Source: Chitinophagaceae bacterium
Lineage (GTDB): Bacteria; Bacteroidota; Bacteroidia; Chitinophagales; Chitinophagaceae
NCBI GenBank assembly: GCA_019638615.1
Contig: JAHBTL010000003.1
Location: 1-64,000 of the forward strand
Direction: 5' to 3'
DNA: 64,000 nucleotides
The translations under genes were made by a program, and so were the position numbers. The notes under the pieces are model-generated. The model worked only from the letters and a program-made list of their open reading frames with translations. It had not been told where the DNA came from and did no database searches. Shown here one piece after another: positions 11,440 to 39,639 of the stretch (the stretch's first letter is position 1; each line of letters starts with the position of its first letter).

Positions 11440-13650
11440 GTGAATATTATCAACAAAAGAAGCATTGACTCGCTGGGTTACAATTTTGTAGCTTCCGACT
11501 ATCTGCCCGAAGGAAAAGATGAATATTACCTGCGTAATATCCAGAACAGGAATGGCATACAGTACCGGGGGTTGACCGCGTGGGAAATTGAAGTGCTGGT
11601 AAGGAACAGGAATACGTCAGACGACTGGAACAAGCTGCTGGTATCGGATGCTTTCAATCCCGAGCTGGTTAAAAACTGTAAATTCTTTGGCTTGGTACGA
11701 ATAGGTAAGCTTGAGCCATGCTTCCTGGAGTTCCACAATCTCCGCATGCCTGTCGGATTGTATAACAGCACCATCATAAGCTGCGACTTTGGCGATAATA
11801 TTGTGGTGGACAGTGTTAATTATCTCTCGCATTATATTATCGGAAGCGAAGTGATCCTCGTGAATATTAATGAACTTTCCACTACCAGCGCGGCTAAGTT
11901 CGGCAATGGGATTATCAAAGAGGGTGAAAATGAGAATATACGAATATGGCTGGAAATATGCAATGAAAACGGGGGACGGAAGGTCATTCCTTTTACCCGC
12001 ATGCTGCCTGGCGATGCGTGGTTATGGTCGAAGTACAGGGATGATGAGGTAATGCAGGAAAAATTCAAAATGTTTACCCAAAAGGAGTACGATACCCGGC
12101 GGGGATATTATGGAAAGATCGGCGACAGGACCATTATAAAAAATACCAGCATTATCAAAGACGCATGGATCGGAACAGACGCCTACATCAAAGGCGCCAA
12201 TAAGCTGAAGAACCTGACCGTTAGCTCTTCCGCAGAAGCGCCCTCGCAAATAGGAGAAGGGTGCGAAATGGTGAACGGCATTATGGGGCTGGGATGTAAG
12301 GCTTTTTATGGTGTTAAGGCCATCCGTTTCATTATGGCTTCTCATTCCCAGTTAAAATACGGCGCCAGGCTTATTAACTCGTATTTAGGCAATAATGCTA
12401 CCATCTCCTGTTGCGAAGTGCTGAACTCGTTGATATTTCCATCGCACGAGCAACACCATAACAATTCTTTTTTGTGCGCGGCAACCGTAATGGGGCAAAG
12501 TAATATGGCTGCGGGAGCAACAATCGGATCCAATCACAATTCCAGGAGCCCTGATGGTGAGCTGATAGCCGGCCGTGGTTTTTGGCCGGGGCTGTGTGTA
12601 AGCCTGAAGCACAATTCGAGGTTTGCTTCTTTTAATATCCTTGCCAAAGGCGACTATCCTGCCGAACTGGATATACCCGTTCCTTTTGCTTTAATAAGCA
12701 ACGATGTATCCAAAGATCAGTTGGTGGTAATGCCTGCCTATTGGTTTATGTACAACCTGTATGCTATTGCCCGCAACGAATGGAAGTACCAGGACAGGGA
12801 CGCAAGGATCGAAAAGCTGCAGCATATAGAGTTTGAGGCGCTTGCACCGGATACGATCAATGAAATAGTAGAGTCGTTGGAATTATTGCGCCTGTTTACC
12901 GGGAAGGCTTTTGCACTGAAAAATACTATCAGCGCGTTAACTGATAAGGAATACATTAAAACCGGCAAAATGTTGCTGGATGGTCACGACCCGGTAGTGG
13001 CAGCGCTGGAAGTGCTGGCGGATGGTTTTGAGAACAGCGAAAGAAAGGTTGTGATCATTAAAGTACAGCAGGCTTACGATATTTTCAAAGAGCTGGTGAT
13101 GTATTATGGCGCACTCCGGTGTATGCAATGCATCAAAACCTTCGGAATAAAATCACTTACAGGGCTAACCCGGCATTTGCCTGCAAAACCCAGGCGTGGC
13201 GCCTGGCTGAATGTAGGAGGGCAGCTTATTCCTGCAGACGCGGTTGAAAAATTCAGGAAAAATCTGCACACGGGAAAAGTAAAAAGCTGGGACGATGTAC
13301 ATGCGTTTTATGCCGCCCAGGCTGCTGACTATGAAAGGTATAAGTTTGAACATGCATTTGCCGCTTTACTGCAGGTGCTCAATATTTCCGCACCGGCATT
13401 TTCCGCGACTGTATTTAAAGCGCTTTTGCAGAAAGCGGTTGAAACCAAAGCCTGGCTGACGGAAGGCATCTTCGAATCACGGGCAAAAGATTACTCCAAT
13501 GCTTTCCGGCAAATGGTGTACGATAACCAGCAGGAAATGGACCAGGTGGTAGGCAAGCTGGAAGACAACAGCTTTATTGCCATGCAGCGAAAAGATTTAA
13601 AGACGTTTAAGCAACAGGTAAACCTGCTGATGAAAGAAATGAAGCTATAA
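11440..13650 (+). CDS. DUF4954 family protein (left-handed beta-helix)
   Basis: This 736-residue protein belongs to the DUF4954 family found mainly in Bacteroidota and spirochaetes. The start is GTG at 11440. The middle part (about residues 110-400) reads as hexapeptide-type left-handed beta-helix, as in sugar-nucleotide acyl/nucleotidyltransferases (GDRTIIKNTSIIKDAWIGTD, GARLINSYLGNNATISC), followed by the conserved blocks GSNHNSRSPDGELIAGRGFWPG and SLKHNSRFASF. The C-terminal 330 residues are helical. The catalytic role is unproven; adjacency to glmS suggests amino-sugar or UDP-sugar metabolism, which is inference. Its 3' end overlaps the convergent GNAT gene by six bases. Confidence 0.9.
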   Translation: MNIINKRSIDSLGYNFVASDYLPEGKDEYYLRNIQNRNGIQYRGLTAWEIEVLVRNRNTSDDWNKLLVSDAFNPELVKNCKFFGLVRIGKLEPCFLEFHNLRMPVGLYNSTIISCDFGDNIVVDSVNYLSHYIIGSEVILVNINELSTTSAAKFGNGIIKEGENENIRIWLEICNENGGRKVIPFTRMLPGDAWLWSKYRDDEVMQEKFKMFTQKEYDTRRGYYGKIGDRTIIKNTSIIKDAWIGTDAYIKGANKLKNLTVSSSAEAPSQIGEGCEMVNGIMGLGCKAFYGVKAIRFIMASHSQLKYGARLINSYLGNNATISCCEVLNSLIFPSHEQHHNNSFLCAATVMGQSNMAAGATIGSNHNSRSPDGELIAGRGFWPGLCVSLKHNSRFASFNILAKGDYPAELDIPVPFALISNDVSKDQLVVMPAYWFMYNLYAIARNEWKYQDRDARIEKLQHIEFEALAPDTINEIVESLELLRLFTGKAFALKNTISALTDKEYIKTGKMLLDGHDPVVAALEVLADGFENSERKVVIIKVQQAYDIFKELVMYYGALRCMQCIKTFGIKSLTGLTRHLPAKPRRGAWLNVGGQLIPADAVEKFRKNLHTGKVKSWDDVHAFYAAQAADYERYKFEHAFAALLQVLNISAPAFSATVFKALLQKAVETKAWLTEGIFESRAKDYSNAFRQMVYDNQQEMDQVVGKLEDNSFIAMQRKDLKTFKQQVNLLMKEMKL

Positions 13651-14151
13651 TTGCCTGCGCATAACATAATCATTCATGAAATAACCATTTCCAATATCTT
13701 TATCTTCGGTACGATATACTTCAAACCCCATTTTTTCGTAGAAGCTTTTAGCATTGTTAAACCTGTTTACATTCAGCTCCAGGATCGTAGCCCCGTCCTG
13801 CAGTATTTCATCTGTAATGTGATTGATGATCTCCCTGCCTGCACCTTTACCCTGCATGGAAGGCAGTATGTAAATTTTGTGCAGCCGGTATATACCCGCT
13901 TCCCTGCTCTGTGGTGAATACGAAGCGAAAGCAGCAGGTTCTTCCATATAGCAGCCTATAATAAACCGGTGCTCTAATGTTCGCATCTGATGCTCGAGCG
14001 ATGGAACGCTGTACATCCTTTCCAGCATATACTCCATTTGCTGTGGAGAAAGAATGGATTTATAAGTGACTGGCCATATTTGAAAGGTCAGCTCTCTTAT
14101 CAAAGGAATATCATTTGTACCGGCTTTTTTAAATGACAGCATAATATGCAA
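13645..14151 (-). CDS. GNAT family N-acetyltransferase
   Basis: This 168-residue cytoplasmic protein has the GNAT fold. Motif A, the acetyl-CoA binding loop, reads YILPSMQGKGAGREII, and motif B includes LELNVNRFNNAKSFYEKMGFEVY. The N terminus (IRELTFQIWPVTYKSILSPQQMEYMLERMY) is typical of the subgroup often annotated as RimI-like or small-molecule acetyltransferases in Bacteroidota. The substrate cannot be told from sequence. It is convergent with the DUF4954 gene, overlapping its end. Confidence 0.93.
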   Translation of the reverse strand: MHIMLSFKKAGTNDIPLIRELTFQIWPVTYKSILSPQQMEYMLERMYSVPSLEHQMRTLEHRFIIGCYMEEPAAFASYSPQSREAGIYRLHKIYILPSMQGKGAGREIINHITDEILQDGATILELNVNRFNNAKSFYEKMGFEVYRTEDKDIGNGYFMNDYVMRRQL

Positions 14152-14168
14152 TATTAACCCACCTTTTT

Positions 14169-16532
14169 CTAAAATTCAATTTTATAGCTTAGCACCGGCA
14201 GCATGATCCTGTCTTCTTCTTTTACAATTTCGCCCGTCCGGTAATAATAATCATAGCCATAAAAAGCAGGACTTCCAAGAGCATTCTTTAACTGTAATGC
14301 CAACGCACCTGAATAGTTTTTTCTGTTAACACGGTAGGTGATCGTAGCATCAAAATAATACATAGGACCTGCCTGTTTTTCAAAAGCCTTCCTCTCATCG
14401 TAATATATTTTTTTCTCAGCTAAAGTTTTTTCCTTGTCAACGGGGCTGTATCGTTCACCTCCAATATAATTAAAACGCAGGTTTACTCCCCACACATGCC
14501 CTTTCTGTGTAATAAATTCTTTCCCTCCCAGCAGGTTAATAGCGTAAGACTTATTGTATCGTGTGTTTCGCCACCGTCCGTCCGGCGCTTTATACTTTGA
14601 ATCAAAAAGAGAGCCGGTAATAAGGAAGTAATAATTCTTTTGTAAAAACCGTTCCAGCGTAAAATCAATACCTACATTACGACCCCTGCTGTTATTGCCC
14701 AGCGAATCGCTAAAAGTCCAGTCCTGCCTGAAATTGATCATACTGTAAGAGCTGTCGGCAATACCTGGAACTTTCTGCAGTAACTGGTAGTAAGGTTCTA
14801 TTTTAAGACGCAGGCTGGACGAAATCAGCCAGTCGTATGAAAAAATGAAATGATGGGCACGGGCAATATCCAAGTTTTTATTAGGGTAGTAAGTTTGGTT
14901 ATTTATCTTTTTTTCTACCATGTAAATGCGGAGATCTTCCATCTGCCGGTGCCTTCCATATCCCAATCCTACAATATGCCTGCTTGTAAGTTTATATTGT
15001 ATGCCCAGCCGCGGGTCAATTGAAAAAGCATGATTCATATCGTAATAACTGACATTTATACCTGCGTTTATCGAAATGGCGGGATTGATATGATACCTGG
15101 TCTGCATAAAGTATTCAGCAAAACCAGTTTCTCCATTGCTGCTGGTAATGTTGCGGAAAGTACCGGGTATATTATTGACTGTACTGTTAACATCAAGGTT
15201 GTAAAACAACCGATGATAATTTACGCCTGTTCTTAATGAAAAGGACGCATTGAATTTATGATTAAGCACACTGCTTAATGTGGCCCGCCAGGACTGGTCA
15301 GAAATCTTCGCATCGGGCTGCAGTGTAAGCTGATCATCGACTCTTTGAATATCTGCAACGTTGCTGACACCGGAAGCTGCCAGTGTAGTATTCAAATAAG
15401 TGCCGGATCCCAGGAGTATTTTGTGTGAAATGCCCATTGCCCCCATACTTAATCTCCAGTCATTTCTTACCCGGTCCCAATTCGTTTCCCATCTGGCGGA
15501 ATCTGTACTTTCTTTTTCGAGCGCATGATCCATTGCTCCGATACCCCATACTGAAAGCGTACCTGCTTTTTGAGTTGGGAAATTCAGCTTGAACGAAAAA
15601 TCCTGAAACGCGGGTACCTGAGATTGGTTGAAAAGCCCCAACCCTGCCAGCAGGCTGAGTGTAGAATAGCGGTAGTTAAACAGGTAAGCTGCCTGCTTCC
15701 CTTTTTTAAAAGGGCCTTCTGATGAAAGGTCGATACCGAGTAAACCCACCTGTACCGAGCTTTCTCGTTGCTCATTATTCCCATTGCGTAATTTCATGTC
15801 GAATACTCCGGCCATGGCGTTGCCGTATTCCGCCGGAAAAGCGCCGGTTAAAAAATCTGAGTGGGCGAGCATTTGACTGCTGAATATAGTTACTACTCCG
15901 CCTCCTGCCACATTTCCACCTGCAAAATGATTGGGATTGGGGATCTCAATACCCTCCAGTCTCCATAATACGCCTTTAGGGGCGTTCCCCCGGATGATGA
16001 TGGCGTTGTCCTGCATATTACCAGGCGTAACACCGGCAAAAGCAGATGCCATGCGGGCGGGGTCATCCAGGCCGCCGGCATACCGTCTTGTCTCTTCTAC
16101 TGAAAAAGAACGGGCGCTCACTGTTGCCATCATGTTGAGCGGCTTATGCTTTTGCAGCCCGGCTTTAATCACAATTTCATCAAGACTTCTAACGGACTGT
16201 TTGAGTTCAATGAACAGTATCAACTCTTTGCTACTGGTTACAAGTATCTCGGGAACCGAAACCGGTTCATATCCTGCCAGGCTTACAAACAGTGTTTGTC
16301 TTCCCAGGGGAATATTAGCAATACGGAAATTGCCATCATCGCTGGATACCGATCCAAGTAGCGGAGCAGTATCCATTACCGTTATGCTGGCGCCGGCGAG
16401 CGGTGACTGTGATTCAGCATCAACGATCTTACCCCTGATGACCTGGGTAATTTGCTGTGAAAAGACGGGTGTTACTGACAATAATATCAATAACATGCCA
16501 AGCTGCCTTTTGGCAATAGAAATTATGTTCAT
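14169..16532 (-). CDS. TonB-dependent outer-membrane receptor
   Basis: A 787-residue TonB-dependent receptor with a signal peptide (residues 1-25, cleavage after FSQ), an N-terminal CarboxypepD_reg-like beta-sandwich (IRGKIVDAESQSPLAGASIT), a plug domain at about 115-250 (NAIIIRGNAPKGVLWRLEGI, with AEYGNAMAGVFDMKLRNGN) and a C-terminal beta-barrel ending in an aromatic residue (YKIEF). There is no STN domain, so it is not itself a classic transducer, and no SusD partner follows. It lies downstream of the sigma/FecR/STN/PepSY genes and is probably part of that regulon. The substrate is unknown. Confidence 0.93.
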   Translation of the reverse strand: MNIISIAKRQLGMLLILLSVTPVFSQQITQVIRGKIVDAESQSPLAGASITVMDTAPLLGSVSSDDGNFRIANIPLGRQTLFVSLAGYEPVSVPEILVTSSKELILFIELKQSVRSLDEIVIKAGLQKHKPLNMMATVSARSFSVEETRRYAGGLDDPARMASAFAGVTPGNMQDNAIIIRGNAPKGVLWRLEGIEIPNPNHFAGGNVAGGGVVTIFSSQMLAHSDFLTGAFPAEYGNAMAGVFDMKLRNGNNEQRESSVQVGLLGIDLSSEGPFKKGKQAAYLFNYRYSTLSLLAGLGLFNQSQVPAFQDFSFKLNFPTQKAGTLSVWGIGAMDHALEKESTDSARWETNWDRVRNDWRLSMGAMGISHKILLGSGTYLNTTLAASGVSNVADIQRVDDQLTLQPDAKISDQSWRATLSSVLNHKFNASFSLRTGVNYHRLFYNLDVNSTVNNIPGTFRNITSSNGETGFAEYFMQTRYHINPAISINAGINVSYYDMNHAFSIDPRLGIQYKLTSRHIVGLGYGRHRQMEDLRIYMVEKKINNQTYYPNKNLDIARAHHFIFSYDWLISSSLRLKIEPYYQLLQKVPGIADSSYSMINFRQDWTFSDSLGNNSRGRNVGIDFTLERFLQKNYYFLITGSLFDSKYKAPDGRWRNTRYNKSYAINLLGGKEFITQKGHVWGVNLRFNYIGGERYSPVDKEKTLAEKKIYYDERKAFEKQAGPMYYFDATITYRVNRKNYSGALALQLKNALGSPAFYGYDYYYRTGEIVKEEDRIMLPVLSYKIEF

Positions 16533-16623
16533 TTTTTTGATATTAAAAAATGAGGCTAAAATGGAATCAATTCAGTTGGTAGAAAAATCCGGGTGCGGGG
16601 TTTCCGTTTGGCGGAGGTAAACA

Positions 16624-16650
16624 AACAGTACACTCTTATGGTGTACTGTT
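16624..16650 (-). promoter_or_regulatory. 10-bp inverted repeat between PepSY and receptor genes
   Basis: AACAGTACAC and GTGTACTGTT are exact inverted arms around a seven-base loop. On the minus strand a T-rich run (TGTTTACC) follows, so it may be the terminator of the PepSY-like gene. It may equally be an operator for the receptor gene, about 90 bases downstream. Confidence 0.5.
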
Positions 16651-16752
16651 GCTCCATTTCTTATGTATGAAAAACTGTAGTATTTAAAGCGCTATAGGTA
16701 CAACTGCTTCGTTGTGTTACATGGCATGAACAAAGTGCGGTATTGTGCGCTG

Positions 16753-17184
16753 CTAATCATCTATCCTTAAAAAGGTCCCGTTTTTGTCGAACTCAAGCGT
16801 TAACCCGTTAGATAATTTTACGTCCTGGGTGGTTTTATTCAGTTCCCATTCTTTAATAAATAAACCAGGATAATTGGTAGTAACATAACTGAGAATGGGT
16901 GCAGGTATTACACTTTCCGGTAATGCTTCGTTGCTTTCAATGTCTATAATTTCCCCATCGCTATTGAACTCAAGCTTCGTACCGCCTTTCAGGTAGGCTT
17001 TATAGGTTGTTTTAAGATCATCTCTTTCTTTTACAACCTGTAAAATCTGCTGTCCTGCAAAGTGTGTATTGATGTAACTGGTACTTGTGGCAGGTAAATC
17101 ATTGGGTGATACTACTTTTTCTTTGTCGCAGGAAGCCAAAATAAATACACAGGCTGCTGTCACTAACAGGAGGATTCTTTTCAT
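16753..17184 (-). CDS. PepSY-like (DUF2874) lipoprotein
   Basis: From the ATG at 17184 (MKRILLLVTAACVFILASCDK) this is a 143-residue lipoprotein with its lipobox cysteine at residue 19. The mature protein has two PepSY-like beta-alpha-beta repeats: ATSTSYINTHFAGQQILQV with YKAYLKGGTKLEFNSDGEI, then PAPILSYVTTNYPG with LSNGLTLEFDKNGTFL. Such proteins are thought to act as periplasmic or surface inhibitors or ligand-binding proteins. The ECF-type promoter motif at 17219-17247 lies 34 bases upstream, so it should belong to the sigma regulon. An upstream in-frame ATG at 17238 would place that motif inside the gene and is rejected. Confidence 0.88.
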   Translation of the reverse strand: MKRILLLVTAACVFILASCDKEKVVSPNDLPATSTSYINTHFAGQQILQVVKERDDLKTTYKAYLKGGTKLEFNSDGEIIDIESNEALPESVIPAPILSYVTTNYPGLFIKEWELNKTTQDVKLSNGLTLEFDKNGTFLRIDD

Positions 17185-17218
17185 GTTACTCTTTTTATTA
17201 TTGTAAATAGGTTTATTA

Positions 17219-17247
17219 TAAGACAATTCAAATAGCATGCACCCTTA
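17219..17247 (-). promoter_or_regulatory. ECF-type promoter, copy 1 (PepSY-like lipoprotein)
   Basis: On the minus strand the site reads TAAGGGT, 14 bases, TTGTCTTA. The same bipartite motif with exactly 14 intervening bases occurs at 20932-20960 and 21216-21244. The GTC in the downstream half fits the -10 core of many ECF promoters. The PepSY-like gene starts 34 bases further on. Confidence 0.7.
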
Positions 17248-17316
17248 TTCAACTCCGGGGTAAAAAAATGTTAAAGAAGATGCTGCTTTTAACATTTACT
17301 TTACAGGCTTCTTCCA

Positions 17317-19143
17317 TTAAAACAAATTGATACCTGCATTCCAGCCGATCCAGCCACTCAGTCTATCGTTATTGAACATTCTTTTTGCGGACGATGATGC
17401 TACTATCGGGAATTTGTATCCGTCAATTGCTGTTTTTTGGTCGCTGTAATACAAGGTGAACGATGGTCCGGCAAATACAGAGAATTTTTTACTCAGGTTA
17501 AAATTAAATTGAATATTAAGCCTGTTTAAAAGGTTTGAGTGATCCCAATCGCCCAGATAGGCAAATGAGGAGCTGAGCTCGGGATTCACGGTAAGCCAGT
17601 TCAGCATTTTGATTTCAGTGCCCAGTCCGTATCCTGCCGTATATAATTTTCTATTCCTGTTTCCTGCATTGGCTCCGGCCTGCAGAATGCTATACAATTT
17701 TGTGCTGCCGGTTTTAAAAGCCAGGTTAAAATTGGTTGTTTCGTTAGTGGAAACTGATACTTTGTGATAGCCCTTTATAACAATATTCACCAACCCGATA
17801 CTGTAACCATCTGAGCTGTCAGCAATATTGATCAATCCCACCTGCACGCCCTGTAATTTTTTGGTATAGTTTACAATTCCACTTACCTGCACTCCTTTTA
17901 TATTTTTTTTATTGTAGTTGATAATACCGGCTGTTTGCAATCCTTTGAAGGAGCCTGTATGATAGTTAACAATGCCCGAAAACTGAGCGCCTTTAAAATC
18001 GCCGCCGCTTACATTTGAAATTCCGGCAACCTGCGTACCTGTAACATGCTGTCTTACATGGTTTGATACGCCGGCAACCTGCATACCATTTATCTGCTGC
18101 AGTACAGTATTGTGTACACCTGCCACCTGCACCCCTTTGACTTCTCCGCCGGTAAGATTAAATACGCCTGCCACCTGTGCAAACTGTGTGTTTTTGCGGT
18201 TAATATTAAAGATACCGCCTGCTTCAACCACTTCAACACCACCGGTATAGCCACCCAGCACGTTGAAAGAAAACTTACTGATGACCTGGCTGCTCAGGCT
18301 GCCATTCGTACTTAATCCGGGCACTACTGACACCTGTACAGATTTTTCGGTAAAAAATTTCCTGATATTAAGGCTCTGGGCTTTTTGACGGGCAGTTAAA
18401 AAGAGCTTTGCCAACCGGGTTTGTTCCACTGTCCCGGGTCTGTTCATCGGCGGAATGCTCGATGTATCTATTATCGGAATGGTCAGTCCGCTGTCTGCAA
18501 GCTGGTAAATGTTTGCTGTAGATTGGATCCTCGCATTGATCACCGGCACTAGCGATATTTCCAGTTGCATATTATAAGCGGGTTGTATGATAACAGTCGT
18601 ATCTTCAAAAGCATCTTTGCTGATAGACAGGGAGGCCGACCGGCGCCTGCTTTTGAGCTTAATGGTAAACTTTCCTTCTTCGTTGGTGAGCGTTGATGCC
18701 AGGTGTGCAGGCTCATAGATGCTGGCATTGGCTATTTTTTCTCCCGTTTCCCCGTTTACGATGTAGCCGGTAATGGTAATGGTATTGTCGGTGGCCGGGC
18801 TTTGCTGTACTACCGATGTAAGCCTGATTGCCACGCGTCTTAGTATAATATAATTGCCGCTTTCCTTGTATTCGTACCCGGTTCCCAGCAATTGTTTCAG
18901 TGCCTGGCGGATGGTATAGTCTCCTGCCGGCAGGCTTACCAGGCTGTCGCGCTTGAGTATATTGCTGTTATAGGAAAAGCTGAAATTTGCCCGGTTGCTG
19001 ATGATGGATAATGCATCATCCAGCCTTTGCTGCCTGATGTCAACAGATACTGATCTGCCAAGTATGTTCTGAGCAAAGCTGTTGTATCCCAAAAGGCATA
19101 GAATGAGCAGTGCCAGGTATTGCCTGTTTCTTTTAATCGTCAT
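17317..19143 (-). CDS. STN/CarboxypepD_reg protein with LA_2272-type surface repeats
   Basis: This 608-residue outer-membrane protein follows fecR by 15 bases. It has a signal peptide (residues 1-25), an STN domain at about 28-102 (VDIRQQRLDDALSIISNRAN, ending YIILRR), a CarboxypepD_reg-like domain at about 122-200 (ITGYIVNGETGEKIANASI), then nine or ten tandem repeats of about 20 residues at roughly 290-455 built on Q-[VFT]-[AS]-G-[IV]-x-N (VQVAGVHN, MQVAGVSN, TQVAGISN, AQFSGIVN), like LA_2272-type surface repeats. The C-terminal 130 residues are barrel-like. There is no plug and no TonB-receptor barrel. STN normally talks to FecR, so this is a candidate surface transducer. Confidence 0.85.
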   Translation of the reverse strand: MTIKRNRQYLALLILCLLGYNSFAQNILGRSVSVDIRQQRLDDALSIISNRANFSFSYNSNILKRDSLVSLPAGDYTIRQALKQLLGTGYEYKESGNYIILRRVAIRLTSVVQQSPATDNTITITGYIVNGETGEKIANASIYEPAHLASTLTNEEGKFTIKLKSRRRSASLSISKDAFEDTTVIIQPAYNMQLEISLVPVINARIQSTANIYQLADSGLTIPIIDTSSIPPMNRPGTVEQTRLAKLFLTARQKAQSLNIRKFFTEKSVQVSVVPGLSTNGSLSSQVISKFSFNVLGGYTGGVEVVEAGGIFNINRKNTQFAQVAGVFNLTGGEVKGVQVAGVHNTVLQQINGMQVAGVSNHVRQHVTGTQVAGISNVSGGDFKGAQFSGIVNYHTGSFKGLQTAGIINYNKKNIKGVQVSGIVNYTKKLQGVQVGLINIADSSDGYSIGLVNIVIKGYHKVSVSTNETTNFNLAFKTGSTKLYSILQAGANAGNRNRKLYTAGYGLGTEIKMLNWLTVNPELSSSFAYLGDWDHSNLLNRLNIQFNFNLSKKFSVFAGPSFTLYYSDQKTAIDGYKFPIVASSSAKRMFNNDRLSGWIGWNAGINLF

Positions 19144-19158
19144 ATCCGGTCTGTAAAA

Positions 19159-20127
19159 TTATTGTAAAACAATATCGTCGCCGTTCCTTGTTACTTTGAT
19201 CATGAGCGTTTGCGACAGGATTTCAAAAATGGTATCTAATGATTCTTCGTTAAACGTTACTGTAAGCGGCAGGGCGCGTAATTCTTTTTTTGCTATCGTG
19301 ATATGAACGTCATAGGCTTCGTTCAATTTGTCAACCAGCTTCCACAGCGGAGTGTTATCGCAAACAAAAGTACGGCTTACATAATAGTTGAAAAGCTTGT
19401 CTGTATTACTGCCTTTTTCCAGTTTATTGGTCAAAGCTGTTATTGTTGTTTGCTCTCCTGCCCTCAATTCAATCGTTTCGTTTTCCCTGGTTACCCGTAC
19501 AATGCCTGTGCTTACTACAATTTCCGTAGCGCTGTTGTTGTTTTTAATATTGAAGGAAGTACCTATCACTTTTACCCTGATATTATCAACATCAATGGTG
19601 AAGGGTTTTGTTTTATCAGGCATGATATTAAAAAAAGCTTCTCCGCTCAGCTTCACATGCCTCTGTTTTTGAAAAGAAGACGGGTAGGAGAGCACCGCTT
19701 TTTTGTTGAGGGTAACAACAGAGTGATCCGGTAATGTGTCAGTCTTTACTTCATTTCCTGAACGGGATACAATCTGTTCAGGAGTTATTTCACCCGGCTG
19801 GTAGATGGAATAAGTAAGCAAAACACCTGCGGCAATAATGAGGATAGCTGCCACCATTCTGAACCAGCTAAATTTTATAATGCGGGTGCCGGGAGGGTTT
19901 TCCGAAATTGCTGCCTGGAACTTTGCCCAGGCTGCATTTTCATCCGGGGTATTAATACCGGCGGGGTTGCTCTCATTCCATAGCAGCGAAAGCTGGTGAA
20001 AGTAATGAAGGTTTTGTTCGCTGCTTTCTACCCACGAAAGCATTTCCTTCTCTTCGGCAGGTGAAGCTTCTCCCGCGAGAAACTTTACCAGCAGTTGATC
20101 TATTTTATCGTTTGCAGCGTATTCCAA
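19159..20127 (-). CDS. FecR family transmembrane anti-sigma factor
   Basis: FecR proteins hold their ECF sigma factor inactive and relay a periplasmic signal to it. This 322-residue protein has the cytoplasmic N-terminal sigma-binding domain (IDQLLVKFLAGEASPAEEKEMLSWVESSEQ split over residues 8-38), one membrane helix at about 86-107 (WFRMVAAILIIAAGVLLTYSI), the periplasmic FecR domain (KTDTLPDHSVVTLNKKAVLSYP, LSGEAFFNI, VKVIGTSFNIK) and a C-terminal STN-like domain (LWKLVDKLNEAYDVHITI). It lies between the sigma and STN genes. A miniature inverted-repeat element separates it from sigma. Confidence 0.95.
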   Translation of the reverse strand: MEYAANDKIDQLLVKFLAGEASPAEEKEMLSWVESSEQNLHYFHQLSLLWNESNPAGINTPDENAAWAKFQAAISENPPGTRIIKFSWFRMVAAILIIAAGVLLTYSIYQPGEITPEQIVSRSGNEVKTDTLPDHSVVTLNKKAVLSYPSSFQKQRHVKLSGEAFFNIMPDKTKPFTIDVDNIRVKVIGTSFNIKNNNSATEIVVSTGIVRVTRENETIELRAGEQTTITALTNKLEKGSNTDKLFNYYVSRTFVCDNTPLWKLVDKLNEAYDVHITIAKKELRALPLTVTFNEESLDTIFEILSQTLMIKVTRNGDDIVLQ

Positions 20128-20163
20128 AGTATACCTTTTATTGGGTTAGATGAGCTATTGCAG

Positions 20164-20285
20164 GTGTATTCCAAATTATCGCTGCATATTTAATTGCCCT
20201 CACCCCTGTCTGCCGACAGGCAGGCTTTTTATTCCCTCCCCGCAGCGGCGAAGGAAAAGCGGTGCGACAATTTGGAATGCACCCA
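20164..20285 (-). mobile_element. Miniature inverted-repeat element, copy A
   Basis: The left end is GTGTATTCCAAATTATCGC and the right end GCGACAATTTGGAATGCACC, giving imperfect terminal inverted repeats. Internally, runs of CCCTCACCCC and TTCCCTCCCC flank a CTGTCTGCCGACAGGCAG hairpin. The reverse complement of 26706-26820 aligns with it at both ends and in the C-rich blocks. It lies 11 bases after the sigma stop and 36 bases before the fecR start. It encodes nothing and would have moved, if ever, by a transposase in trans. Confidence 0.65.
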
Positions 20286-20296
20286 CCCTTGTCTGT

Positions 20297-20872
20297 TTAT
20301 GGTAGCAGCAGATACAACACCGTTGTTGCCGGTAAATATGCTGCCAGTTTTAAGCGCAAAAGTCTCAAAGCCTTGCCCATTTGAGCCTCTATTGTTTTTA
20401 CCGAAAGCCCAAGCTGCAGGGCTATCTCCTGGTATTTTAGTCCCTCGAACCTGCTCAGCCTGAATATGATGCCACATTGCTCAGGTAAATCGTCCAATGC
20501 CACCCGTATATGTTCCTGCAGTTCTTTACCCAGAATTTTATGCTCTGCATTTTCTGCAAAAGAGGGCGGTTGCCTGGTTATATATTTTTCGTGAACTGAT
20601 TTTATCTGCTGGTGCTTGATATAATTAAGACAATGATTATAAATCGATTTGTACAGGTATGCTTTAGCAGATATGCCAATAGATAATTCGTCTTTTTTCT
20701 CCCATAATTTTAAAAAAACCTGTTGCACTATTCCTTCGGCGGCAAATTCATTTTTGATCAGGGTATAAGCGTACCGGTACAATTCTTCATAAAATTTTTT
20801 AAAGATCGTTTCAAATGAAGAGGTTGTTACGGTTGTTACAATATCTGCGCTGTCGGTTTTTATTCGTTCCAC
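20297..20872 (-). CDS. ECF RNA polymerase sigma factor, FecI-like Bacteroidota family
   Basis: This 191-residue sigma-70 family protein has region 2 at about residues 22-90 (FKKFYEELYRYAYTLIKNE, AEGIVQQVFLKLWEKKDEL, AYLYKSIYNHCLNYIKH) and region 4 at about 125-180 (ALDDLPEQCGIIFRLSRFEG, LKYQEIALQLGLSVKTIEAQ, MGKALRLLRLKL). It directs transcription of cell-surface signalling genes and is controlled by the FecR protein encoded next. Its own promoter at 20932-20960 carries the motif shared by two other genes here, which suggests autoregulation. A 120-bp repeat element follows its stop. Confidence 0.96.
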   Translation of the reverse strand: MERIKTDSADIVTTVTTSSFETIFKKFYEELYRYAYTLIKNEFAAEGIVQQVFLKLWEKKDELSIGISAKAYLYKSIYNHCLNYIKHQQIKSVHEKYITRQPPSFAENAEHKILGKELQEHIRVALDDLPEQCGIIFRLSRFEGLKYQEIALQLGLSVKTIEAQMGKALRLLRLKLAAYLPATTVLYLLLP

Positions 20873-20931
20873 CGTTGCTTGCTTAATTCCTGTATCAAAG
20901 ATAATCGCTTCCAGCCAATACCACTTTGTAG

Positions 20932-20960
20932 TAAGACAATCATTGGAACGCTTACCCTTA
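20932..20960 (-). promoter_or_regulatory. ECF-type promoter, copy 2 (sigma gene)
   Basis: TAAGGGT, 14 bases, TTGTCTTA on the minus strand, with the downstream end 59 bases before the sigma ATG. Identical halves and identical spacing to the copies at 17219-17247 and 21216-21244 point to positive autoregulation. Confidence 0.7.
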
Positions 20961-21012
20961 CCGGTTCTTTAAAAAAAATCAGGTGGTTGATTATCATAGC
21001 AAATCTTTTCAG

Positions 21013-21198
21013 TCATTGTATTGCGGCAATGCTTTTAAAAAGAAGGCTATTACCCAGGGTGCAGTACTGATTCCAACTGGAGGCAAAATACCGGAAATAA
21101 TACAGGTGATCGTCGCTGCTTTCAAGCCACAACCTTATAGTTGTTTCTTCAGACAATGTAGCTTTTTGCTCGAGGAATTTGAGGAGTAATTCATCCAT
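21013..21198 (-). CDS. Free-standing FecR N-terminal (sigma-binding) domain
   Basis: From the ATG at 21198 this is a 61-residue protein whose first 44 residues match the cytoplasmic N-terminal domain of FecR: MDELLLKFLEQKATLSEETT, then IRLWLESSDDHLYYFRYFAS and SWNQ. The complete FecR at 19159-20127 has the parallel LLVKFLAGEASPAEEKEMLS and WVESSEQNLHYFHQL. It lacks the membrane helix and periplasmic part; the last 17 residues are unrelated. It has its own copy of the ECF-type promoter and lies directly upstream of the sigma gene. It is either a remnant of a second fecR or a soluble anti- or pro-sigma peptide. An alternative in-frame ATG at 21216 overlaps the promoter. Confidence 0.6.
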   Translation of the reverse strand: MDELLLKFLEQKATLSEETTIRLWLESSDDHLYYFRYFASSWNQYCTLGNSLLFKSIAAIQ

Positions 21199-21215
21199 TG
21201 TTTGTTGTTTTATCA

Positions 21216-21244
21216 TAAGACAACAAACAGCCGGTGTACCCTTA
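21216..21244 (-). promoter_or_regulatory. ECF-type promoter, copy 3 (FecR-domain stub)
   Basis: TAAGGGT, 14 bases, TTGTCTTA on the minus strand, ending 18 bases before the ATG at 21198. It matches the promoters of the sigma and PepSY-like genes. Confidence 0.65.
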
Positions 21245-21356
21245 CGTGCTGCGATATTTGGATTATGGGGATATCATGCGCTGAGTGCGTTGGTTCATTT
21301 ATTTCAGATGGTGAATGGTATTCCTTGTAACCTGCAACTTGCAACGATGTCTTTTC

Positions 21357-22724
21357 TTACACATTGCCTGGTGTAGGATGCACCCACGATCCCCTGTAGG
21401 GACGCTGTAACAGTTTTGTTGCTTCCGGGTCGCCCACAATTTCTCTTTTAACGGGATCATACTTCAGAGAACGCCCAAGCTGCATGGAAAGGTTGGCAAT
21501 GATACAGCTTGCAGTAGATATATGACCTTCTTCTATATCCGCTATTGGCCTGGTTTTATTGTCTATCGCTTTCAGGAAGTCGAGCATGTGCAAACGGGTA
21601 GCGGGGGCAGCGTTCAATTCAATCGCAGGCTCGTTTACATCCTCCGGATATTTTTCCTTTTCGTATACTACATCTTTGTGGATCTTTTCACCCTTGCCAA
21701 CCGGAATAAAATCATATTGCATGGTACTGCCGCAAAGCGTTCCCTTGTCGCCGTATAATTTAAAAGACCAGGGATATTCCGGGTCTGCGGGAGTGCCCCA
21801 ACTCCTGTGCTGCCATACACAGTTTAATCCATCGTATTCAAAAATCGCCGATTGCGTATCAGCAATATTGCTTTTTCCTGTTTTGTTAACATATATACCG
21901 CCGGTTGAAGTAATAAGCTTTGGCCAGCCGAGTTTCAGCATCCACCTGACGGTGTCGAGCATGTGAATGCACATGTCGCCCATAATACCGTTGCCATATT
22001 CCATAAAAGTACGCCACCAGCGTATATGGGGTAATCCATCATAGGGACGCATTGGGGCGGGACCTGTCCACATTTCATAATCAAAAAAATCGGGCACAGG
22101 TTGTTCCGGCGGATTGCCGTTGTTGCGCATGTGATAGTAACAACACATTTCCACGTGCGATATTTTTCCCAGCAAACCCGCATCTATAATATTCTTTTTA
22201 GCGTCAATTAAGTGAGGAGTGCTTTTGCGTTGCGTACCTACCTGCACTACTTTGTTGTATTTCCTGGCGGCGGAAACCATTGCTTCGCCCTCTGTTACAT
22301 CCACGCTGATGGGCTTTTGTACATATACATGCGCGCCGGCTTTTATAGAATCAATGGCCTGCAGGGCATGCCAGTGATCAGGAGAGCCTATCAGTACTAT
22401 TTCAGGTTTTTGTTCCGACAGCATTTTCCTGTAATCTCCATATTGCGCCGGCTTTTTCTTGTTTTGCTGGCGCTGGCTTACCATAGTGGCAGCATTTTCC
22501 AACTGGTTTTTGTCGGGATCGCATACGCCTACCACTTCTACCGGGGCAACCTGTATTAACCTGAACAGGTCGCTTTTGCCGTACCAGCCTGTACCGATCA
22601 GCGCTACCCTTCTTGGAGAAGGAGGTGTGGAGAAATCCATTCCATTCACTTTAAGAGAGGCAAGTGCTAAAGCTGCAGACGTACCACGAATAAACTGGCG
22701 GCGGTTGAAATTGTGCTGACTCAT
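21357..22724 (-). CDS. Gfo/Idh/MocA family oxidoreductase, Tat-exported
   Basis: A 455-residue NAD(P)-dependent sugar dehydrogenase-like protein. It opens with a twin-arginine signal (NRRQFIRGTSAALALASL), so it is probably exported folded. The Rossmann domain follows (RRVALIGTGWYGKSDLFRL, VVGVCDPD, VLIGSPDHWHALQAIDSI), with the family EKP-type motif as VQKPIS and the C-terminal GFO/IDH domain containing GDMCIHMLDTVRWML. The substrate is unknown; homologues act on sugars or inositols. It is monocistronic. A second family member of the GH109 type is at 63187. Confidence 0.93.
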   Translation of the reverse strand: MSQHNFNRRQFIRGTSAALALASLKVNGMDFSTPPSPRRVALIGTGWYGKSDLFRLIQVAPVEVVGVCDPDKNQLENAATMVSQRQQNKKKPAQYGDYRKMLSEQKPEIVLIGSPDHWHALQAIDSIKAGAHVYVQKPISVDVTEGEAMVSAARKYNKVVQVGTQRKSTPHLIDAKKNIIDAGLLGKISHVEMCCYYHMRNNGNPPEQPVPDFFDYEMWTGPAPMRPYDGLPHIRWWRTFMEYGNGIMGDMCIHMLDTVRWMLKLGWPKLITSTGGIYVNKTGKSNIADTQSAIFEYDGLNCVWQHRSWGTPADPEYPWSFKLYGDKGTLCGSTMQYDFIPVGKGEKIHKDVVYEKEKYPEDVNEPAIELNAAPATRLHMLDFLKAIDNKTRPIADIEEGHISTASCIIANLSMQLGRSLKYDPVKREIVGDPEATKLLQRPYRGSWVHPTPGNV

Positions 22725-39430: not shown

Positions 39431-39639
39431 TTGATTTGGGTTTTAATAAGACATTACCGGGTTTAGATTGTTATCCGGCAACCGGCACATAAACGGCCTA
39501 ACAGGGCATCCATTGCGTATTATGTTATCAATCAATGGGGATTTATCATTTTTCAAAATCTTTTTACTCATGCAGCGTTCTTATATTAGCATAAAGTTTT
39601 TGTTATTTCGTCATATTAAATTAATTGTTTAACACCCGC

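Follow-up and report, generated by a model that had tools for sequence, protein, structure and literature searches.

The locus described here, a sigma-factor operon accompanied by three copies of a bipartite motif in a Chitinophagaceae bacterium related to Terrimonas (GenBank assembly GCA_019638615.1, contig JAHBTL010000003.1, positions 1 to 64,000; hereafter the window, whose numbering is used below), is most readily compared with the FecI–FecR–FecA systems of Escherichia coli and the related Pup and Fpv systems of Pseudomonas. The likeness lies in an extracytoplasmic function (ECF) sigma factor, an adjacent regulator with FecR and FecR_C domains, and an STN-domain partner encoded alongside. 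There are also differences. The sigma operon here appears to carry an ECF promoter of its own, in contrast to fecIR, which passages of PMC9249621 describe as Fur-controlled and not autoregulated; and the presumed signal donor here is a protein of 608 residues without a match to the TonB plug. Since neither the transporter feature nor the mode of regulation agrees, we do not file the locus as a full FecIRA member.

Other described systems share single features with this one. Positive autoregulation is predicted for about 55% of ECF sigma factors (passages of PMC8103513), and autoregulated ECFs are characterized, in the portion of PMC6411747 consulted, by stringent -35 and -10 elements and a rigid spacer. 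The present locus resembles them in having a conserved, rigidly spaced motif before its own operon, and differs in its GGGGTA-like -35 and TTGTC -10, where the passages of PMC8103513 give AAC and CGT as typical. The Dma/Das (ECF21) systems of Bacteroides likewise, within the Bacteroidota, join an ECF sigma factor to a barrel in the outer membrane (passages of PMC13088901); there, however, barrel and anti-sigma domain form one protein, while here FecR and the STN protein have separate open reading frames. The SM6 motif of Flavobacterium psychrophilum, an ECF-type motif with a CGT box that also precedes a sigma/anti-sigma pair (passages of PMC9723704), is comparable by its description, rather than its logo, as a Bacteroidota ECF-type promoter motif, and differs in its regulon of type IX secretion system genes. 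In the phosphate-induced clusters of Flavobacterium johnsoniae, FecR-like and ECF sigma genes are strongly induced (passages of PMC8115612), so induced FecR/ECF pairs are not new in the phylum; those clusters are of the SusCD type, and the same passages give no promoter motif. For Bacteroides thetaiotaomicron, a passage of PMC7366714 states that none of the alternative ECFs had a known motif at the time. In the titles and abstract openings of the literature searched, neither the motif nor the operon is described, though a published logo for this sigma factor's group is possible.

It is highly probable, on comparative grounds, that the sigma factor encoded between the copies recognizes the motif as its -35/-10 core promoter, and that this sigma factor would drive its own operon together with a PepSY-like lipoprotein gene. 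The order of genes along the minus strand is stub, sigma, FecR, STN protein, PepSY-like lipoprotein and TonB-receptor-like protein. The features on which the argument depends are the following.

20932-20960, minus strand: predicted promoter of the sigma–FecR–STN operon, with -35 TAAGGGT(AA), N14 and -10 TTGTCTTA; an exact motif copy, at a site that heads orthologous operons.
17219-17247, minus strand: candidate promoter of the PepSY-like lipoprotein gene; an exact copy, its -10 ending 34 nt before the ATG.
21216-21244, minus strand: candidate promoter of the stub; an exact copy, its -10 ending 17 nt before the ATG.
20297-20914, minus strand: ECF sigma factor of TIGR02985 (170.4 bits against a cut-off of 126.4), with Sigma70_r2 and r4_2 (Pfam).
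19159-20127, minus strand: FecR-type anti-sigma factor/regulator (Pfam FecR 3.4e-14, FecR_C 4.6e-12).
17317-19143, minus strand: STN protein, the presumed signal donor, with STN and CarboxypepD_reg-like domains (Pfam) and a C-terminus of GxQxAGxxN repeats, barrel-like.
16753-17184, minus strand: PepSY-like lipoprotein (PF11396, Pfam 1e-17), with a lipobox LASC recognized by eye.
21013-21198, minus strand: anti-sigma-like stub of 61 aa, resembling the N-terminus of the local FecR.

The motif TAAGGGT-N14-TTGTCTTA occurs three times without mismatch on the minus strand, at the three promoter positions above, and the spacers of the copies are mutually unrelated. The first-pass annotation had claimed just this (three full copies, a fixed N14 and unrelated spacers), and its coordinates proved exact. 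It had also seen the full motif nowhere else, which the genome bears out: in 7.18 Mb (87 contigs) these are the only exact copies, against a chance expectation of about 0.013 (by arithmetic, with 15 bases fixed and both strands counted), and mismatches add one copy with a single mismatch and 11 with two. Of these 12 weaker matches, nine lie within open frames of at least 110 codons and three are intergenic (C10:44612, C25:40636 and C34:264302, the first and last oriented toward the following gene). The genome-wide check that the first-pass annotation had proposed, in which many unrelated matches would have spoken against a local regulon, met no exact match away from this locus. At up to two mismatches the 15 genomic matches are fewer than the 26 of the reversed control, so there is no enrichment and such weak matches are uninformative. 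At up to three mismatches the window contains six matches where shuffles average 2.25, six being reached in one of 100 shuffles, and the information thus sits in the exact copies. A weight matrix built from 64 sites, the three window copies included, scores these copies at 27.1, 28.3 and 31.5 bits and the next-best window position at 8.4. Isolated TGTCTTA halves had been placed near 39450 and 62240; they are present (39447 and 62238), but seven more stand elsewhere in the window outside the three sites (18050, 20626, 34943, 50197, 51274, 53655 and 62528).

Two of the weaker sites deserve separate mention. A two-mismatch motif at C34:264302-264330, with one mismatch in the -10 core, lies about 120 nt upstream of a gene for a different ECF sigma in this genome; scored at -8.6 (paralogue locus L123), it is not selected by the matrix, and it could be a related paralogue promoter or chance. 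The three-mismatch look-alike at 20263-20291 was rejected as a promoter; it falls mostly within a dispersed repeat of about 120 bp.

Among 244 genomes of the family, 166 contain a match to the sigma factor at E 1e-20 or better, with many paralogues among them. In a first set of 40 loci, picked as the best sigma matches and read over larger regions (559 kb), FecR comes next after sigma in all 40 and the STN gene follows in 39, the remaining locus (L057) stopping at a contig edge. The strict pattern TA[AG]GGGT-N14-[TG]TGT[CT] precedes sigma in 30 of the 40 loci and, in three more (L048, L055, L074), a receptor gene that itself precedes sigma; the motif thus stands ahead of the receptor gene in all three operons of that arrangement. 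A variant form is found in six of the seven loci lacking the strict pattern (hand count). The spacing is as rigid as the window copies suggest: N14 yields 59 forward and three reverse matches, other spacings from 8 to 21 yield at most three each, and the reversed control yields one. None of the 59 forward matches falls inside a mapped same-strand gene of its own locus, and the three reverse matches (L052, L053, L054) sit in the gap that separates the operon from a divergently oriented STN-gene relative.

A second set, obtained by searching with the STN family and overlapping the first (80 of 187 loci retained, whose genera include Terrimonas, Niastella, Chitinophaga, Flavihumibacter, Pinibacter and Pedobacter), has at least one forward site in 70 of its 80 loci (hand count), and its 1.29 Mb gives 121 forward and four reverse matches against one in the control. 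Merging both sets with the window gives 121 loci, of which 115 have sigma and STN genes and 94 a distinct sigma, mostly from the Chitinophagaceae. An operon-head site above 12 bits is present in 87 of the 94 (84 before sigma, three before a receptor gene), by a matrix whose training loci are also among those counted; the top score in 200 shuffled stretches is 7.5 bits. The consensus at operon heads is TA(G/A)GGGTAA-N12-TTGTCnTA. The comparison with orthologous sigma genes that the first-pass annotation had called for therefore favors its proposal that the sigma factor would autoregulate. Its companion proposal, that the sigma drives receptor-side genes, is to be narrowed: it fits the lipoprotein and the stub, and does not fit the TonB-type receptor, which has no site.

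Several close relatives help to define which targets are shared. Within the genus, sigma is found at E 1e-45 or better in four of 12 genomes. Two genomes of the genus (G239 and G123) have exactly two sites genome-wide, before sigma and before the PepSY-like gene, and the nearest species (G246, sigma 79%) has two sites at the same places in the 16.5-kb region read. The position of the PepSY promoter is matched in all three, as well as in L059 and L073, and orthologues of the lipoprotein have 142-143 aa; the gene appears to be a second conserved target. From the comparison of the three genomes, the core regulon of the lineage is sigma–FecR–STN plus PepSY. The same comparison bears on the idea that chance or a recent duplication within the locus produced the three copies. 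Neither the stub nor its promoter copy is present in the nearest species, as a recent duplication would predict, yet the spacers are unrelated and the sigma and PepSY sites recur in all three congeners, which refutes the idea for two of the three copies; as an account of the whole pattern it can be given practically no weight.

The distance from the motif to the sigma reading frame is informative as to its function. In a survey of 42 rows (40 loci, the window and L151; hand counts), an LxEAxIF-like peptide appears in the sigma frame ahead of the listed starts, 11-18 nt past the -10 in 32 of the 42. Among the 24 rows whose peptides score best, the Ala and Ile codons vary at the third position alone, as coding sequence would; because the rows were chosen by that score, this variation is not an independent test of translation. 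If the peptide is translated, sigma coding would start near 20914 (LEAIIF...), some 14 codons ahead of the GTG listed at 20872. A start-like peptide at 11-18 nt after the -10 places the motif where the core promoter must be. It is also a difficulty for the view that the motif is the operator of a separate factor, for instance a dimer on an imperfect TAAG...CTTA dyad, with the genes read by another sigma: scant room would be left for a core promoter downstream. The copies in this genome do contain TAAG-N21-CTTA, a dyad of four bases, and any shared trans-acting factor would yield concerted variation among its sites; but most relatives have lost the dyad, their sites reading TAGGGGTAA...TTGTCnTA. 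We consider such an operator very improbable. A further reading, in which the motif is an RNA element of the 5' leader, could appeal to its short distance before several operons. It is opposed by the fixed N14 with an unconserved spacer and by an Rfam search of positions 16000-22500 that gave nothing at E up to 0.5, and strikes us as extremely improbable.

If the motif is a core promoter, the question becomes which protein reads it. Sites before different genes of the same locus were compared in 83 pairs from 66 loci, with 2000 permutations. The variable motif positions agree at 0.689 within a locus against 0.579 when permuted (sd 0.012; reached in 0 of 2000), while spacer positions agree at 0.307 against 0.300 (657 of 2000). 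Non-homologous sites of one genome thus co-vary and their spacers do not, as one shared reader would produce, and the earlier suggestion that a single protein selects these sites gains from it. The motif also travels with the sigma operon across genera. The latter observation is relevant to a cascade in which another ECF sigma of the genome reads the promoters and controls this sigma factor. The genome offers candidates, with 94 TIGR02985 matches, 36 of them over the cut-off, and cross-talk is possible by sequence. The motif was, however, not found upstream of the 29 best-scoring of the 93 other matches (420 nt read for 28 of them, 321 nt for one), where the best score is -3.3 bits against at least 24 for the 64 sites; a reader need not itself carry the motif, but the tracking of this one operon across genera also argues against a cascade, which we hold to be very improbable.

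Covariation between promoter and sigma points the same way as the reading in which the local sigma is the reader, and plausibly falls at places fitting base contacts. At -35 position 3, the six promoters with A all belong to sigma factors with Ala, Val or Ser at residue 163, and 79 of the 81 with G to sigma factors with Asn; residue 163 has the largest mutual information with this position among the eight columns listed. In an alignment with the sigma-E region-4 structure 2h27 its counterpart is a serine, and we take this serine to contact -35 DNA. For -10 position 26, the highest z-score is that of residue 78 (region 2, next to residue 79), with 56 C-Tyr, 19 T-His, 5 C-His, 3 T-Tyr and 4 other combinations. 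In Mycobacterium tuberculosis SigH, according to the portion of PMC6411747 consulted, T76 and N77 of the specificity loop contact the flipped -10 base.

A number of points weigh against the local sigma as reader of its own promoter. The permutation of pairs ignores the kinship of loci, so that one ancestral shift may count several times; residues 89, 134 and 90 outscore residue 163 by z-score for the -35 base, and several columns exceed residue 78 in mutual information for the -10 base; and in a test on the tree the supported independent pairs number two at the -35 base and one at the -10 base, which is not significant. The 64 sites used to train the matrix come from loci that also enter the counts, and the 40 loci of the first set were selected as best sigma matches. 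Seven of the 94 distinct-sigma loci have no operon-head site (L081, L197, L209, L221, L225, L226 and L230); in L197 the site is cut by the contig end, and L209, L221, L225, L226 and L230 come from Hufsiella, Pedobacter and Arcticibacter. Finally, passages of PMC8103513 name FecI-type ECFs as an exception to ECF autoregulation and give CGT as the typical -10, which is absent from TTGTC. Set beside these are the findings that emerge from comparison, namely the position of the motif, its fixed spacing, its conservation, its concerted variation and its absence from the paralogues checked, and we infer from them that this sigma factor would be the reader and that transcription would start at the motif.

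In the Pedobacter loci L221, L225 and L226, the motif is not at sigma, and a good copy lies before another relative of the STN protein about 3.5 kb upstream, as if operon order or specificity had shifted.

Copies remote from the sigma locus suggest a wider regulon in some relatives. Across 244 genomes of the family, 80 motif sites turned up in 48, compared with 24 sites for the reversed control (hand totals). In 20 regions away from the sigma locus, which are a part of all such regions and come from genomes of which some are related, so that not all copies are independent, 22 copies were examined. Six precede relatives of TonB receptors, three relatives of the STN protein and one a FecR relative; the other 12 show no match to proteins of the locus, and some of these are probably chance. 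A scan of the 7.18 Mb finds no remote exact copy in the present genome.

The STN protein, presumed to be the signal donor, is unlike the usual transporter. Its frame of 613 residues contrasts with 52 of the 54 STN matches of the genome, which lie in frames of 1091-1224 residues (one other has 361), and no Plug or TonB-receptor family matches any of 36 members of its family at E 0.01 or better; the features of a transporter with plug and large barrel are therefore missing. PF07660 is present in the window protein and in 33 of the 36 members scanned. The NCBIfam LA_2272 repeat is matched at 27.3 bits against a cut-off of 25, and a profile search against solved structures gives one good match, a SusC-homologue domain. 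An AlphaFold model (36 sequences; mean predicted local distance difference test 81, predicted template modelling score 0.59) has an STN domain resembling those of PupA (2a02, TM 0.72) and the PupR:PupB entry (6ovm, TM 0.74), both TM values being by target and with weak E-values, and also a transthyretin-like domain. The C-terminal part of the model weakly matches outer-membrane barrels in Foldseek, where no match reaches E 0.001; that it forms such a barrel is a good guess. The genome has no full-length paralogue, the seven other matches covering at most the first ~200 residues.

Apart from the DNA step, the mechanism that we would propose rests on what is known of FecI and FecR, and the signal path is to be understood in that light. 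An outer-membrane signal would pass through the STN-bearing protein, whose STN domain would contact FecR_C, and the FecR N-terminus would then release or activate sigma. Sigma in turn would transcribe the sigma–FecR–STN operon and the PepSY-like lipoprotein gene, as well as the stub in this genome. More sigma together with more FecR would amount to a positive feedback loop with its anti-sigma factor inside.

The stub is seen in this genome alone. The first-pass annotation was right to place motif copies upstream of the PepSY-like lipoprotein and the ECF sigma, but its label "FecR-domain stub" is not sustained, as searches of Pfam and NCBIfam gave the stub no match at E up to 1. It does resemble the N-terminal anti-sigma part of the neighboring FecR (38% over 50 residues, E 4.8e-7), keeping the first part of that region and missing the last. 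A separate copy is found in none of the other 120 of the 121 loci scanned. The stub could be a copy in decay, or it could act as a small brake or helper. Its promoter has a further trait: at 21199-21229, the -10/start region forms a 15-nt inverted repeat, TGTTTGTTGTTTTAT / ATAAGACAACAAACA (93%), which is not listed at the other two sites.

Two other features complete the locus.

14169-16532, minus strand: TonB-dependent-receptor-like protein, with no motif before the gene.
20163-20283 (element within 20155-20292), no strand assigned: dispersed repeat bounded by inverted repeats, between sigma and FecR, overlapping the three-mismatch look-alike.

The best matrix score in the gap preceding the receptor-like gene is only -1.5 bits, unlike the receptor genes at the sigma locus of many relatives, which carry the motif. 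The gene is missing at this place in the nearest species, which shares the upstream gene (95%) and in which the lipoprotein is followed by the counterpart of open reading frame 13645-14151 (acetyltransferase-like by eye). The repeat of about 120 bp has 27 genome matches, 14 of them other near-full-length copies at 70-87% identity, and looks like an element of the repetitive extragenic palindromic or miniature inverted-repeat transposable type inserted in the operon; the gap between sigma and FecR is about 100 bp shorter in the nearest species.

The locus is a case of FecI/FecR-type signalling whose ECF promoter is defined, conserved and apparently autoregulatory. In a broader reading, to which we would give an even chance, it represents a branch of cell-surface signalling widespread in the Chitinophagaceae, in which a non-transporter sensor (the plug-less STN-repeat-barrel protein) would act through FecR on an ECF sigma that activates itself and has a GGGGTA/GTC promoter code of its own; remote promoter copies would recruit TonB receptors and barrel relatives in some genera, and the stub would be an extra soluble brake or helper here. 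The promoters of TIGR02985-type sigma factors in the Bacteroidota are poorly known, even though this genome alone has 94 matches. With the present finding, one branch of FecI-like systems acquires a small regulon and a promoter that can be tested, and the covariation of bases and residues may serve as a start on the promoter code of this group of sigma factors. It suggests, further, that a FecI-like system can be autoregulated, and it points to an unusual sensor.

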